This document shows positions 6,795 to 63,742 of a stretch of 64,000 bases of DNA, piece by piece; positions within the stretch are counted from its first letter, which is position 1, and the number at the start of each line of letters is the position of its first letter. This stretch comes from a bacterium (GTDB lineage: Bacteria > Electryoneota > Electryoneia > Electryoneales > Electryoneaceae): the NCBI GenBank assembly GCA_020444425.1, contig JAHLLB010000001.1, positions 124,001-188,000 of the forward strand. Direction: 5' to 3'. Under the pieces are notes generated by a model. That model was not told where the DNA came from. It worked only from the letters and a program-made list of their open reading frames with translations, and did no database searches. The position numbers and the translations under genes are program-made.

Positions 6795-6845
6795 ACTCGG
6801 TTGTCGGTTGTCGGTTGTCGGTTGTCGGTTATCGGTGATCGGTAT
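6795..6845. repeat. Left inverted degenerate tandem repeat of the fliI/fliJ insertion
   Basis: Tandem GGTTGTC units (about five copies, decaying to GGTTATC and GGTGATC) lie directly upstream of fliJ. They are in inverse orientation to the CCGACTACC units at 7288-7333 on the other side of the four-helix-bundle gene, so the two tracts bound the cassette as imperfect inverted repeats. Confidence 0.8.
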
Positions 6846-6908
6846 TTAGCGCTTGGTACTCAGTTGTTTCTGGACATGGTCGCCATCACGAAAAACAACC
6901 ATTGCCAA

Positions 6909-7268
6909 CTAAGCTTGTTCTTTCACTTTCTGAATCAAACCGTAGATTGCTTTGGCAGTCCGAACGGCAATCGTACTCACTTGATCGTGTGCTTCCTGAC
7001 TGATAAACTTCAGTCTCATCGATAAAGACAATTGGTAGTCCAGTTCCCGAACAGATCCATAGGAAATGTGCAAAAAATGCAGAAGTTCTTTATTTGTCGA
7101 CCTAGCACAACCTTCAACGATATTAGAAGCAACGGAAACTGCTGCTCTTCTCATTTGATTGATCAGTCCAAATCTCTCTTCATCCGGCATCATCATTGTG
7201 ATTCGGTAGACTTCCAAGGCTAATTCGTCAGCCAGATCAAAAGCCTGCAAGTTGCGATGATCCTGCAT
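6909..7268 (-). CDS. Four-helix-bundle protein (S23 / TIGR02436 family) inserted in the flagellar operon
   Basis: 119 residues with the family hallmarks: HRNLQAFDLADELALEVYRI at the start, then ERFGLINQMRRAAVSVASNI and EGCARSTNKELLHFLHIS, then RELDYQLSLS. This family is best known from open reading frames inside intervening sequences of 23S rRNA genes and is related in fold to the Avd protein of diversity-generating retroelements; its biochemical function is unknown. ATG at 7268 is preferred over an in-frame TTG 18 bases upstream because AGAGGG lies 6 bases ahead. It reads in the operon direction but has no known flagellar role. The flanking inverted repeat tracts suggest a mobile cassette. 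Confidence 0.88.
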   Translation of the reverse strand: MQDHRNLQAFDLADELALEVYRITMMMPDEERFGLINQMRRAAVSVASNIVEGCARSTNKELLHFLHISYGSVRELDYQLSLSMRLKFISQEAHDQVSTIAVRTAKAIYGLIQKVKEQA

Positions 7269-7287
7269 GTTTGACCCTCTTTTCAAT

Positions 7288-7333
7288 TACCGACCACCGA
7301 CTACCGTATACCGACTACCATCTACCGACTACC
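7288..7333. repeat. Right inverted degenerate tandem repeat of the fliI/fliJ insertion
   Basis: Four CCGACTACC-like units. The fliI stop codon (TAG at 7331-7329, minus strand) lies inside the outermost unit, so the repeat itself supplies the end of fliI. This marks the likely insertion boundary of the cassette. Confidence 0.8.
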
Positions 7334-8684
7334 CAGAGAGCTCAATCACCTGCCCCCACGTCCCCTTCAAGTCAGCGCCTTCATTCATGTCCTGGATCAG
7401 GAAGTTCTCGATTTCGTCACGTTTATCAACCGCCCGGTCGATCCGTGGATTCGAGCCTTTCTTATACGCTCCGATGTTGATCAGGTCTTCATTTTCACGC
7501 CACACGGCCATGTCGGTCTGGACCAGTTTCGCGGCTTTCTTCAGTTCGTCCGGCACAACTTCGACCATCACACGGCTGATGCTTTGCAGCACGTCCACCG
7601 CCGGATAGTGTCCTTCGGTTGCCAGCTTGCGGCTGAGCACGATGTGGCCATCGAGGATCGAACGGACCGCATCCGCGACCGGTTCATTCATGTCGTCGCC
7701 TTCGACCAGGACCGTGTACAGCGCGGTAATCGATCCCTTGTCGCCACGTCCGGCGCGTTCGAGCAATTTCGGCAGCATCGCGAACACAGACGGCGTGTAG
7801 CCGCGTGTCGTCGGCGGCTCTCCAACCGCGAGGCCGATCTCGCGTTGTGCCATCGCCAGACGGGTGACCGAATCCATCATCAACATTACGTCTTTGCCCT
7901 GGTCACGGAAGTACTCGGCGATCGCAGTGGCGAGCATCGCGCCCTTGATGCGGATCAACGCAGGCTTGTCCGAGGTGACAACCACCACCACCGACCGTGC
8001 CAGCCCTTCCGGCCCGAGGTCGCGCTCGATGAAATCCCGCACCTCGCGTCCACGCTCACCGACCAGCGCGATGACGTTAACCTCGGCCTCGGTGTTACGC
8101 GCGACCATGCCCATGGTGACGCTCTTGCCCACACCGGACCCGGCGAAGATGCCGAATCGCTGGCCTTTTCCGCAGGTCAGCAGCCCGTCAATGGACCGAA
8201 TCCCCAACCCGAGCGGTTCGGTGACGCGTTGCCGCTTCAGCGGATGCGGCGGATCCGCGGTGATTGGAACCTGCGTCTCGGTGTCGAGCGGTCCAAGGTC
8301 ATCGAGGACGTTGCCCAGTCCATCCAGCACTCGTCCGAGCAAGCCTGGCCCGACTTTGACCGTAAATGGCCGACGCAAGGACCGCACGATCGACCCCGGC
8401 GCGATTCCGCTCAACTCGCCTAACGGCATGAGCAACACGTGATGGTCGCGGAATCCGACCACCTCGGCCAACCCCAGGCGCCGGTTCTGCCTGTTCAGCA
8501 ACTCACAGATTTCGCCAACCGACGCCTCCGGTCCGGAGGATTCAATGACCAGTCCGACCACACGCACGACACGTCCACGCGGCACAAGCGGCTGAGCAGC
8601 GTCCAGCAGCTCCTCATGGCTGCGGAACAGCTCTTCCAGTGCCGGCGGTTGCGCCAACGGTGCGAGGGACGGAGTGTCGGTCAT
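7329..8684 (-). CDS. fliI: Flagellum-specific ATPase FliI
   Basis: FliI is the hexameric ATPase at the cytoplasmic face of the flagellar type III export gate. Walker A is AGSGVGKS at residues 181-188; the Walker B/DSVTRLA stretch (VMLMMDSVTRLAMAQREIGL) and PPTTRGYTPSVF motif follow, all typical of FliI. The length of 451 is normal. The start overlaps fliH by 4 bases. The last residues (VIELSG) end in a stop codon contributed by the adjacent repeat unit, so the extreme C-terminus may have been slightly altered by the insertion. Confidence 0.97.
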   Translation of the reverse strand: MTDTPSLAPLAQPPALEELFRSHEELLDAAQPLVPRGRVVRVVGLVIESSGPEASVGEICELLNRQNRRLGLAEVVGFRDHHVLLMPLGELSGIAPGSIVRSLRRPFTVKVGPGLLGRVLDGLGNVLDDLGPLDTETQVPITADPPHPLKRQRVTEPLGLGIRSIDGLLTCGKGQRFGIFAGSGVGKSVTMGMVARNTEAEVNVIALVGERGREVRDFIERDLGPEGLARSVVVVVTSDKPALIRIKGAMLATAIAEYFRDQGKDVMLMMDSVTRLAMAQREIGLAVGEPPTTRGYTPSVFAMLPKLLERAGRGDKGSITALYTVLVEGDDMNEPVADAVRSILDGHIVLSRKLATEGHYPAVDVLQSISRVMVEVVPDELKKAAKLVQTDMAVWRENEDLINIGAYKKGSNPRIDRAVDKRDEIENFLIQDMNEGADLKGTWGQVIELSG

Positions 8685-54947: not shown

Positions 54948-55016
54948 AGGGACACTTATTCCTTTGGTGTCCCTTTAAACTGGTATGCCGGGGACACTTA
55001 CGGAGTAAGTGTCCCC
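54948..55016. repeat. REP-like GGGGACACTTA palindromes between E2 and E3 genes
   Basis: Two palindromes: AGGGACAC/GTGTCCCT (54948-54974) and GGGGACACTTAC, loop GGA, GTAAGTGTCCCC (54990-55016, a perfect 12-bp stem). The same core recurs at 56624-56663 and 63391-63726. They may also act as hairpins that set relative E2/E3 expression. Confidence 0.85.
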
Positions 55017-56534: not shown

Positions 56535-56623
56535 AAGCTACTGCGGTCGTTTCCACAGACAATTTGGCGCTACTGTATAGTTTTCAAGTGACGAGATCGG
56601 GGTACCGAAAACCGAGAACACCC

Positions 56624-56663
56624 ACAACCGGGGACACTTACTCCGTTAAGTGTCCCCGGTTGT
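56624..56663. repeat. Perfect 40-base REP-like palindrome upstream of the lipoate ligase gene
   Basis: 17-bp perfect stem (ACAACCGGGGACACTTA with its complement), loop CTCCGT. Same core and loop as the copy at 63408-63451 and, in reverse orientation, 54990-55016. Such GGGGACAC palindromes resemble REP sequences mobilised by RAYT (IS200-like, Y1) transposases; no such transposase is in the window. Confidence 0.88.
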
Positions 56664-56711
56664 GCGTCTCTGATCTCACATCTCAAATCTCAGATCTCCT
56701 ATCTTCCCCTC

Positions 56712-59885: not shown

Positions 59886-60719
59886 CTACTCTTTCACCCC
59901 GCCGAGCGTCAGCCCGCCGACCAGCCAGCGGTTGGCGACGAGGAACAACGCGACCACCGGCACCGACACCACCAGCGCGCCGGCAGCGTACAGCCCCCAC
60001 TCGGTCGACATTGACTGTTCGAACTGCTTCAATCCCAGCGGCAACGTGTACATCGTCGGATCCTGCAACACCTGCGCCGCAACAAGGTACTCCGACCACG
60101 CGCTCATGAAGCTGAACAATCCGGTAATGACCAGCGCCGGAGTCACCAGCGGCAGGATCACCTTGTAAAATGCGCTGAACCGGTTGCACCCGTCCACCAT
60201 CGCCGCCTCCTCCAGCGAGTACGGGATGGTGTCATAATACCCTTTCATCGTCCACACGCAAAACGGCATCGCGGTTGCTGAGTAGACGACGATCAACCCG
60301 AAGTACGTGTTCAGCAAATTCATTTTGCTGATGATGATGTACATCGGCAACAACAGCATCGTCGCCGGGAACATTTGCGTGGTCAGGATCGACAGCATCG
60401 CCGCTGTCCGTCCGATGAATTTGTAGCGGCTGATCGCATAGCCCGCAGTAGACGCCAAGGTAACACCGAGAATCGTCACCGCCAGCGAGACAAAGGTCGA
60501 GTTCCACAGCCAACGCAGGAACGGGCGTTCGGTGAACAGTTCGACGAAGTTGGACCACGTCGCGCCGTCCGGCACCAACGCCAGCGAGGTGCTCAACAGT
60601 TGATCGCCCGGCCGCAGCGAGATGCTGAAAACGCGCAGGATCGGATAGATCGCGATCAGCACGAAAATCAGCAGCACGGCGTAGATGAACAATCGTTTCA
60701 GCAATGGGTCTTTTTGCAT
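59886..60719 (-). CDS. malG: Maltose-type ABC transporter permease MalG
   Basis: 277 residues, six membrane segments, with the cytoplasmic EAA loop SLEEAAMVDGCNRFSAFYKV that docks on the ATPase. The N-terminus (LFIYAVLLIFVLIAIYPILR) and the C-terminal VANRWLVGGLTLGGVKE are MalG-like. GAGGGAATGAC precedes the ATG. Its partner is the MalF half of the fusion 434 bases upstream, separated by a repeat-bounded AT-rich element. Substrate (maltodextrin/alpha-glucan) is inferred from the GH57 neighbour. Confidence 0.92.
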   Translation of the reverse strand: MQKDPLLKRLFIYAVLLIFVLIAIYPILRVFSISLRPGDQLLSTSLALVPDGATWSNFVELFTERPFLRWLWNSTFVSLAVTILGVTLASTAGYAISRYKFIGRTAAMLSILTTQMFPATMLLLPMYIIISKMNLLNTYFGLIVVYSATAMPFCVWTMKGYYDTIPYSLEEAAMVDGCNRFSAFYKVILPLVTPALVITGLFSFMSAWSEYLVAAQVLQDPTMYTLPLGLKQFEQSMSTEWGLYAAGALVVSVPVVALFLVANRWLVGGLTLGGVKE

Positions 60720-60742
60720 GTCATTCCCTCACAGACTCTCTC

Positions 60743-61142
60743 AACCACGGAATACACGGAATAAACGGAAACGTCAACTGCCATTTAACCGCGAAAGACG
60801 CGAAAACAGCGAAAGAAAAGATAAAAGACAAAATTATTGGCTAAAAATAACTTATACAATACAATAATCATAAAACAACACTAATAATACAATAAATATA
60901 TTAATATTAACTAAAATAAACTCATCTTAATATAAGAACATGAATCGCTACATTTGTTATCCTGAGATCTATTTGTTTATCCCATCATTTTATCTTTTAT
61001 CCAATAGGCATTTTCTTTTATCTCAAATCTATTTTTCTTTTATCCAAAAGTATTTTACGCTTTTTCTCGCTCCTTTCGCGGTTCAAAGAGTCTTTTTCCG
61101 GGCGTTCCGTGTATTCCGTGTATTCCGCGTATTCCGTGGTTC
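60743..61142. mobile_element. ~400-base AT-rich non-coding element with nested inverted repeat ends
   Basis: Left end: AACCACGGAATACACGGAAT (60743-60762), then AACCGCGAAAGACGCGAAAA (60787-60806). The right end carries the same two modules in reverse complement and mirrored order: TTTCGCGGTT (61074-61083), then CCGTGTATTCCGCGTATTCC and CCGTGGTT (to 61141). The core (60827-61064) is strongly AT-rich, with repeated TTTTATC and TCTCAAATCTATTT words, and shows no coding frame. It splits malEF from malG inside an operon. The symmetric ends suggest an inserted MITE-like or relic cassette; I know of no named family. Confidence 0.6.
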
Positions 61143-61153
61143 AATCTTCCTTA

Positions 61154-63742
61154 TCAGTACACCGTTTCGGTCGCTTTGTTCGTCCTCAGGTAGTACACCC
61201 CGAAGGCGAGCAAGATGGCGAAGATGACCATGCTCATCGCGGCAGCGTAGCCGTAACGGTACAGATTAAACGCGCTCTTGTAGACGAACGAGACCAGGAT
61301 GTGCGTATTGTCGGACGGTTCGCCCGCATTCGAGACCAGCCAGATCACGTTCAGGTTGTTGAATGTCCAGACGGTCCCGAGCACAATCGCCGGTGCCATC
61401 ACCGGTTTCAGCAACGGCAGGGTGATGGTGCGCAACTTGGTCCACCAGCCCGCGCCGTCGATTTCTGCGGCTTCGTACAGTTGTGTCGGGATCGACTGCA
61501 GCCCGCCCAGCGCGACGACCATCATGAACGGGAACCCGAGCCAGACATTGGTCAGGATGACGGCGAGAAACGCTTCCGTCGGTGACCCCAGCCAGTTGAC
61601 CGGATCCATGTGCAGGAACCTGGTGATAACGAGGTTGATCGCGCCGTATTCCTGGTTGAACATCCCGCGCCAGGTCAACGCCGTAATGTACTGCGGCACC
61701 GCCCACGGCAGGATCAGCAATGTGCGGATGACACCACGTCCGGGCAGGACACGATGCAGCAGCAACGCGAGGAAGACACCAATCGTAACGTGGAACACGA
61801 TGTTGGAGACGGTCCAAATAATCGTCTTGCCAAACACCGACCAGAAACCGGGTTCAGAGAAGACCTTCACGTAATTCTGGAAGCCGATTACGTCCCACGA
61901 GAAGAAGTTGCGAAGCCCCATGTTCGACAGGCTGAGCACCACGTTATACGCGAATGGGTAGACGACGGTGATGAAGATGACGATGAACGCCGGCAGGATC
62001 ATCAGGTAGATGAACGAGCGGCTGCGCAGGTCTTTCACCAGCGCGATTAGCGGCTTGACCAGTACGATGAACAGTGCGAGCAGGCCGAGCATCGCGATCA
62101 CCTGCAGCACCGGCACATACCCCGCCGGTTCGATGACCTCGTTCATCTCGCGGATCTTGCGTTCCGCCTCGGACTGCATCGTGGCGGCGGCTTCTTCCGG
62201 GGTGACGGCCCCGCCGAGCACAGCCTGGTAGCTGGGCCGCATGGCGTCCCAGATCGCACGCAGTTCCGGCACCACCGGCATCGGCGTGCCAACCTCGATC
62301 TGCAACAGACTCCCGCGCATGATCGGGTTATCGGTGATGACCGGATCGTCCCGCAGGCTCAGCCGTGACGGCATGATGCCTGTCCTCGCCGCCAGTTCAC
62401 GTTGTTCCGGGGTGCTCATCAGGAAGCTGAGGAAGCGGTGTGTCGCGGCGAGTTTTTCTTCGGCAATGTTCACATTCAGCGAGAACCCGCGCGGGCTGAC
62501 CAGCGGCGAGGGCCAGCGCTGCGTCTCCTCGATGTACGGGATTCGCGCGACACCGATGTCGATGCCATCTTCGATGTAGGTCGCCCAGGACCAGTCACCG
62601 TTGATGATCATCGCCGCCTGGCCTTCCTTGAACAACGTGTGCGCGACTTCGTAGTCAGCGTTCTGCGGCGTGATCTTGTACTTGTCGCGAAGATCCTGGA
62701 CAAACTGCAGCGCGCGGACATTGGCCTCGGTGTCCAGCGTGGGACGGTACTGATCGTCCATCAGCTGCCCGCCGAATCCGGTGAAGAACGGGATGAAGAA
62801 GAACGGTTCGGTGAAATTCCAGACGAGACCGAAGCGGTCGGTTTTGGAATCGACGTCGAGGTCGAGTGTGTTCGCCTGCCCGATTTCAATCATTTCGGCG
62901 ATGGTCTGCGGCGGTTCGGGAACGAATTCCTTGTTGTAGACCAGCGTCAGGTGGTTGCCGAAACGGTCGGCGACCTGGTACAGGTAGTCGTCGTACCATA
63001 CCAGCGCCTGCGAATCGAGCTCTGCCAGTTCGGGTTCGGAGAAGATGTCCTCGAGCGGACGGATGATCCCCATGGTCGCGAACGGTCCGACCTGATCGGA
63101 GGGACCGTGGATCAGTTCCGGCCCACGTCCGGCGAGGGCGCTGTTCTGGTAACCGCTTCGCAGTTCTTCCGTTTCACGGTACAACGCAGTGATCTTGATG
63201 TCCGGATTCTGCTCTTCGAAGCGAGCGACCTGCTCGTCGAGAACCACTCGCTCGGCGTAGTTGAGCTGATGCCAGAGAGTGACCTCGGTGCGATCGTCCG
63301 ACTCGGCACAGCCGGTGAACAGGCCGACGGCGAGGAACAAGATCAGCGATACCAGGATCCACGACATAAATGTCGTGGGCATAGTAGACATGGGGACACT
63401 TACTCCGACAGACATGGGGACACTTACTCCGTTAAGTGTCCCCATGTCTGTCACGGACGTATCCACATCTTTCGGGGACACTTTGGGGACAAAGTGTCCC
63501 ATTTCCGATGACCGGTCGGATGCTGACGGTGACATCTTCACGTCTTTCGGGGACACTTCAGGGACAAAGTGTCCCATTTCCGATGACCGGTCGGATGCTG
63601 ACGGCGACATCCCCATGTCCGTCGGGGACACTTTGGGGACAAAGTGTCCCCTTTCCGATGACCGGTCGGATGCTGACGGTGACATCTTCACGTCTTTCGG
63701 GGACACTTCAGGGACAAAGTGTCCCCGGTTTTCACCCCTCAT
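61154..63742 (-). CDS. Fused solute-binding lipoprotein and ABC permease (MalE-MalF), with repeat-derived N-terminal extension
   Basis: 862 residues if read from ATG 63742, which overlaps the GH57 stop (ATGA) with GGGGG upstream. Residues ~6-117 are repeats encoded by the REP array. The native start appears at 118-121 (MSTMPTTFMSWILVSLILFL, lipobox FTGC). Residues ~145-530 are a MalE-type binding domain (VTLWHQLNYAERVVLDEQVA, AAMIINGDWSWATYIEDG). An extra helix leads into a MalF-type permease (LMILPAFIVIFITVVYPFAY, EAA loop YEAAEIDGAGWWTKLRTITL). Internal starts are ATG 63391 or 63382, neither with a ribosome binding site. It binds and transports an alpha-glucan, by inference from context. 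Confidence 0.88.
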   Translation of the reverse strand: MRGENRGHFVPEVSPKDVKMSPSASDRSSERGHFVPKVSPTDMGMSPSASDRSSEMGHFVPEVSPKDVKMSPSASDRSSEMGHFVPKVSPKDVDTSVTDMGTLNGVSVPMSVGVSVPMSTMPTTFMSWILVSLILFLAVGLFTGCAESDDRTEVTLWHQLNYAERVVLDEQVARFEEQNPDIKITALYRETEELRSGYQNSALAGRGPELIHGPSDQVGPFATMGIIRPLEDIFSEPELAELDSQALVWYDDYLYQVADRFGNHLTLVYNKEFVPEPPQTIAEMIEIGQANTLDLDVDSKTDRFGLVWNFTEPFFFIPFFTGFGGQLMDDQYRPTLDTEANVRALQFVQDLRDKYKITPQNADYEVAHTLFKEGQAAMIINGDWSWATYIEDGIDIGVARIPYIEETQRWPSPLVSPRGFSLNVNIAEEKLAATHRFLSFLMSTPEQRELAARTGIMPSRLSLRDDPVITDNPIMRGSLLQIEVGTPMPVVPELRAIWDAMRPSYQAVLGGAVTPEEAAATMQSEAERKIREMNEVIEPAGYVPVLQVIAMLGLLALFIVLVKPLIALVKDLRSRSFIYLMILPAFIVIFITVVYPFAYNVVLSLSNMGLRNFFSWDVIGFQNYVKVFSEPGFWSVFGKTIIWTVSNIVFHVTIGVFLALLLHRVLPGRGVIRTLLILPWAVPQYITALTWRGMFNQEYGAINLVITRFLHMDPVNWLGSPTEAFLAVILTNVWLGFPFMMVVALGGLQSIPTQLYEAAEIDGAGWWTKLRTITLPLLKPVMAPAIVLGTVWTFNNLNVIWLVSNAGEPSDNTHILVSFVYKSAFNLYRYGYAAAMSMVIFAILLAFGVYYLRTNKATETVY
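63391..63726. repeat. REP-like palindromes and four-unit 75-base tandem array inside the malEF reading frame
   Basis: A 19-bp perfect palindrome (63408-63426 with 63433-63451, loop CTCCGT) is followed by four units starting GGGGACAC at 63474, 63549, 63624 and 63699, exactly 75 bases apart. Units 1 and 3 share CTTTGGGGACAAAG and units 2 and 4 share CTTCAGGGACAAAG, so the array also has a 150-base higher order. Each unit contains its own GGGACACTT/AAGTGTCCC hairpin plus GATGACCGGTCGGATGCTGA. 75 is a multiple of three, so the reading frame stays open through the array. Confidence 0.92.

Follow-up and report, generated by a model that had tools for sequence, protein, structure and literature searches.

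A gene-less, MITE-like element between malEF and malG that probably belongs to a family of array-ended GxxExxY cassettes

Results

The 399-bp insert found between malEF and malG, at positions 60743-61141 of the window (the whole 64,000-nt stretch of DNA analysed), is probably a gene-less, MITE-like member of a cassette family with 9-nt arrays and a GxxExxY gene, mobilised in trans. Dispersed paired copies, an empty orthologous site, ends in common with a GxxExxY gene, 9-nt arrays in two phyla and arms able to form a hairpin were observed in its favour. As judged from sequence, the family is defined by degenerate 9-nt words arrayed in inverted orientation at the two ends, which in gene-bearing members enclose one GxxExxY gene with a predicted PD-(D/E)XK motif.

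Structure of the element

The insert has a G+C content of 0.32, and both neighbouring genes lie on the minus strand. A sequence-only reading had described a non-coding element of 400 bases (60743-61142) with nested, mirrored modules at both ends and an AT-rich core, placed in a sugar-transport operon. This description was accurate, with the true right end at 61141 and the final base outside the element; modules A and B are each present at both ends in inverted, mirrored form, open frames inside 60743-61141 give no plausible gene, and the AT-rich core has malEF and malG at its flanks. The features are:

59886-60719, minus strand: malG-like permease, start 23 nt from the element
60743-60770, plus strand: module A, left copy, AACCACGGAATACACGGAATAAACGGAA, AACC plus 9-nt words
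60771-60786, strandless: spacer from left A to left B, differing between copies
60787-60815, plus strand: module B, left copy, AACCGCGAAAGACGCGAAAACAGCGAAAG, 9-nt words
60816-61064, strandless: AT-rich non-coding core, free of GxxExxY or IVP remnants and of a structure signal of its own
61065-61083, minus strand: module B, right copy, complement AACCGCGAAAGGAGCGAGA
61096-61141, minus strand: module A, right copy, five 9-nt words, end CCGTGGTT
61154-63742, minus strand: malE-malF fusion ORF, end 12 nt from the element

In the outer module A, AACC precedes (ACGGAATAC)n, a degenerate 9-nt word present three times on the left and, as complement, five times on the right; complementarity between the 28-nt outer arms, at 60743-60770 and 61114-61141, is 93%. 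The inner module B is likewise AACC-led, 9-nt periodic and inverted, with a word of the GCGAAAGAC type. In the right half of the core, at 60957-61045, about five degenerate TTTTATCC words were seen, possibly a third array type, with no clear mirror copy.

Folding, which had been proposed as a check for a structured RNA, revealed the whole element to be one long hairpin, with z = -8.2 as RNA (transcribed strand) and -9.1 as DNA. Across the nine gene-less copies of the source genome described below, z ranged from -7.3 to -17.5, and in all nine the signal came from arms of about 90 nt; the cores of all gene-less copies folded alone gave z near 0 and no structure signal. The possibility that the two arms of a copy evolve in concert was considered and dropped, since the own-pair versus cross-pair comparison was marginal (p = 0.03) and driven by a single locus, L067.

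Insertion between malEF and malG

Comparison of the malEF-malG junction revealed the element to be absent in 11 of 11 relatives, where the gaps are short with the exception of G005 (about 300 nt with an unrelated small open frame). The element is therefore an insertion and not a conserved leader, as seen from junctions compared between diverged relatives. A second case was found in the sister species G001, in which mutS and a gene X are separated by a 331-bp element with A ends and no gene; the two genes are adjacent or nearly so in the source genome and in G003, a member of another genus, with no element between them.

Target site duplications were sought by eye in the ten two-ended copies of the source genome, revealing no shared flank words, and the relatives are too diverged for an empty site to be defined at the nucleotide level. 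The motif GAGAG lies directly outside 5 of 22 ends in the source genome and 0 of 84 ends in other phyla. As a general target motif it was thus dropped, and its absence from the ends in other phyla points to local Shine-Dalgarno context.

Copies in the same genome

The source genome is represented by a 4.48-Mb assembly of 74 contigs that is 91% complete. Allowing at most two mismatches, module A was matched 54 times, as opposed to 0 times for a reversed-pattern control, so that its abundance is far above chance. Inward-facing pairs of the outer module, spaced 231-475 bp apart, were located at nine further places, beside unrelated genes, and further degraded or solo module-A ends are also present. 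The sequence-only reading was to be abandoned if the modules never recurred in pairs or if relatives conserved the region as a leader; paired modules were in fact found elsewhere in the genome, and the relatives lack the element at this site.

In total, the genome contains ten two-ended elements, of which nine, measuring 231-399 bp, have no gene, while the tenth, with 475 bp, encloses a GxxExxY gene, the sole one found in this 91% complete assembly. The outer arms of the gene-bearing copy differ from those of the window element at 0-1 of 28 bases (left word set). The malEF-malG element accordingly has inverted, AACC-led 9-nt arrays at both ends, as in the 9-nt-array/GxxExxY family as defined here, and its ends recur around a GxxExxY gene of this genome; because the malEF-malG copy itself is without the gene, we term it a gene-less member. 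The suggestion of a non-autonomous relative was borne out by these shared 28-nt ends, and also by a metagenome contig on which A ends flank a GxxExxY gene in truncated form.

The two-shell A+B design is common to all nine gene-less copies, is missing from the gene-bearing copy, and was also seen in the other genus (G003; L132, L133). Module B occurs in AACC-led and GTCC-led subtypes, and both ends of a copy nearly always agree. Between cores, homology was limited to short AT-rich matches, and traces of GxxExxY or IVP genes were found neither in the nine gene-less cores of the source genome nor in the core of the sister species. At one locus (L070:1140-1500), a solo A end precedes (AAATCTC/AAGTCTC)n heptamers, so that a 9-nt end stands beside a 7-nt array.

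The GxxExxY cassette and its protein

The GxxExxY cassette of the source genome is located directly downstream of gene X. At the same place, G003 has a GxxExxY gene that is 62-63% identical, bracketed by arrays of a different word (CGGATGACA type) that again match at both ends; at the corresponding site of G001 (L314, after position 1965), the contig ends in IS-like sequence that comes after a solo array AACCACGAATCACACGAATACACACGAATAAA. GxxExxY proteins conserve G28, G30, E33 and Y36 as well as D73...E83-x-K85, a PD-(D/E)XK nuclease signature. The 28-nt ends of the window element thus also bracket a nuclease-like gene that is no known transposase. A profile search against PDB returned two T7 endonuclease I sequences only, at sub-threshold E-values of 0.8-0.9, by which a link to junction-resolving nucleases may be taken as a lead, not as evidence.

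In the accessible text of the open-access literature searched, GxxExxY was not linked to repeats. The accessions PF13366, TIGR04256 and TIGR02436 were met there in the sole context of Arctic microalgae, and the array words were not found in print.

Module-A ends in other organisms

The exact 28-nt module gave no match in contigs of other genomes, and a looser module-A pattern was therefore used. It matched at least 115 DNA stretches, with hosts including Planctomycetes, Verrucomicrobia/Kiritimatiellae, Lentisphaerae, Proteobacteria, Chloroflexi and Methanosarcina. A-type pairs in other phyla are mostly short, gene-less inverted pairs of 60-400 bp with no nearby GxxExxY gene, which implies that ends and gene are often apart. 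GxxExxY was present at 2 of the 80 loci examined, i.e., in Nitrosomonas halophila, where the gene lies beside A-like, GTCC-led arrays with an almost identical word, and on metagenome contig L146, where A-type ends delimit a 269-bp element with the gene reduced to its N-terminal part. Since these loci were picked by DNA alone, the link between array and gene is independent in both. Directly upstream of the N. halophila gene, several near-identical array-hairpin units of about 150 bp stand in tandem (L138:2045-2960).

Array periods and gene classes in two phyla

GxxExxY and IVP (four-helix-bundle) genes with intact flanks were sampled from this phylum and one other and subjected to an arm test, in which the best inverted match between 330-nt flanks was compared with shifted controls in the same loci; earlier periodicity statistics had been too weak for the short GxxExxY arrays. 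Inverted arrays bracketed 22 of 25 GxxExxY genes (0 of 100 controls) and 45 of 49 IVP genes (4 of 196 controls). The dominant period was 9 for 13 GxxExxY and 2 IVP genes and 7 for 0 GxxExxY and 37 IVP genes (Fisher p = 1.7e-10 for period 9 versus 7 by gene class), the remaining GxxExxY arms having a best period of 8, 10 or 11. Similarity of the array word was correlated with protein similarity for GxxExxY (Mantel r = 0.47, p = 0.0002) and for IVP (r = 0.23, p = 0.0002), both values being uncorrected for loci that share a genome.

A cassette between fliJ and fliI (window 6800-7334), to which the malEF-malG element had been likened, has the following parts, and six other PF05635 copies are present in the genome:

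6800-6852, plus strand: border, 7-nt array (GGTTGTC)n
6909-7286, minus strand: gene for a four-helix-bundle (IVP) protein, TIGR02436/PF05635
7287-7334, plus strand: other border, inverted 7-nt array (ACCGACT)n

The likeness held for the design, with inverted degenerate arrays at the borders, and failed for the family, which is 7-nt/IVP as opposed to 9-nt/GxxExxY. As the fliI/fliJ cassette falls into the 7-nt class, the parallel was one between sister classes and not within one family; the malEF-malG element, with period 9 and no IVP remnant, is not a 7-nt-array/IVP cassette.

REP-like palindromes and RAYT genes

REP-like palindromes, GGGGACACTT...AAGTGTCCCC, occur in the window at 63407-63727, 54949-55015 and 56620-56667. 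The first of these positions is inside the N-terminus of the extended malEF ORF, so that the true start is probably further downstream. The RAYT (Y1_Tnp) loci L309-L311 bear 3-8 GGGGACA motifs each. A link of RAYT to module A was rejected, no A module being present at any of the seven RAYT loci of the genome.

Discussion

Period-specific arrays around two gene families point to small mobile cassettes of a class that has received little description. For movement, the cassette's nuclease may recognise the array ends in the form of cruciform DNA or of an RNA or ssDNA hairpin and, together with host repair or recombination, would copy or move any DNA between matching arrays, and gene-less copies with matching ends would spread in trans. 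The nuclease step by itself, with the GxxExxY protein acting on the array ends, is put forward tentatively, as something that could well be otherwise. Insertion would take place into narrow gaps between genes, in many cases immediately 5' of a Shine-Dalgarno stretch rich in GAGAG; in the present case, malG would be parted from malEF by a transcribed hairpin, a possible RNase III site, and an effect on the mal operon is possible as a secondary matter.

More broadly, bacteria may harbour two widespread, parallel classes of minimal mobile cassette, each with one small gene between inverted arrays, in which the protein class would fix the period (9 for GxxExxY, 7 for IVP), the word would drift with the protein, the arrays would be the recognition sites and gene-less copies would be moved in trans; we consider this an even-handed possibility that falls somewhat short of probable. 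GxxExxY and IVP are widespread families with no assigned biological role in the literature searched, and the near-universal bracketing by arrays among the sampled copies suggests acting on their own ends as a candidate role. A large class of intergenic repeats so far without explanation would be accounted for by array-bracketed cassettes. Mobile-element ends do not usually combine a fixed period with a drifting word and agreement between the two ends, and such a combination would amount to a new recognition logic.

Among other explanations, an immobile regulatory leader or attenuator of malG would fit the intra-operon position beside a Shine-Dalgarno sequence and the strong hairpin, but it is the least probable, given the absence from the junction in 11 relatives, the same element beside unrelated genes elsewhere in the genome and a scan of window positions 60000-62000 in which no Rfam family scored above gathering; a regulatory role through later co-option is possible. 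Mobilisation by a RAYT (Y1 tyrosine transposase), with the element as a repeat of the REP/BIME type, is hardly more credible; hairpins moved in this way are known (PMC3733652). Although the genome has seven Y1_Tnp genes and REP-like GGGGACACTT palindromes, module A was found at 0 of 7 RAYT loci, several of which bear GGGGACA motifs instead, it has no GTAG or CGTC tag, and the element measures 399 bp with two shells as opposed to 20-40 bp.

The malEF-malG copy could also have held a GxxExxY gene and lost it in place, as the sequence-only reading had proposed in its alternative of a decayed cassette. The ends common to gene-less and gene-bearing copies and the N-terminal gene remnant on contig L146 are in line with such decay; however, this proposal lost ground, and is now unlikely, with no GxxExxY or IVP trace in the malEF-malG core or the other cores. 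Moreover, the end-matched A+B design confined to gene-less copies suggests spread as gene-less elements. The main alternative to a nuclease acting on arrays is an RNA route, by which the hairpin would be transcribed with the host mRNA, processed by RNase III like the 23S rRNA intervening sequences (IVS) and propagated through reverse transcription. The 23S IVS form hairpins, contain an S23/IVP ORF and are processed by RNase III, and in Coxiella GACAGAT heptamers lie upstream of the ORF (PMC4990558); IVP is related to the DGR protein Avd, with which DGR reverse transcriptases co-occur (PMC8934634). The strong hairpin agrees with this route, but the cassettes contain no reverse transcriptase and the IVP/Avd link belongs to the 7-nt class, making it improbable for the malEF-malG element. 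Against mobilisation in trans as a gene-less family member, the explanation we prefer, stand the non-aligning cores, which are unlike a typical recent MITE burst, and the frequent separation of A-type ends from GxxExxY genes in other phyla.

Comparison with known systems

Like REPs and RAYTs with GTAG/CGTC tags (PMC3733652), the malEF-malG element is a dispersed intergenic palindrome; unlike them, it is untagged, larger and not associated with the RAYT genes tested, and is thus not of this type. Degenerate short tandem intergenic words are also seen in TAACTGA of Beggiatoaceae (PMC4679880) and GGGAATC of Xanthomonas (PMC4692102); in the available parts of these two papers, bracketing of IVP genes was not found, and the repeats are, unlike the element, of period 7 and mainly described as direct. 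With 23S rRNA IVS (PMC4990558), there is likeness in the size of a few hundred bp, the hairpin-forming inverted ends, the optional small ORF and the heptamers beside the IVP ORF. The malEF-malG element is not an IVS, as it lies in a protein operon between malEF and malG, not in rRNA, is of the 9-nt/GxxExxY class and lacks an ORF.

As in bacterial MITEs and small non-autonomous elements, the element is short, non-coding, dispersed and intergenic, with terminal inverted repeats, several copies, one of them gene-bearing with the same ends, and sites that are empty in relatives (malEF-malG and, as a second case, mutS-X). Unlike in MITEs, each end is made up of two nested shells of degenerate 9-nt words in tandem, the cores are not homologous, and the shared gene encodes a putative PD-(D/E)XK-type protein and no known transposase.
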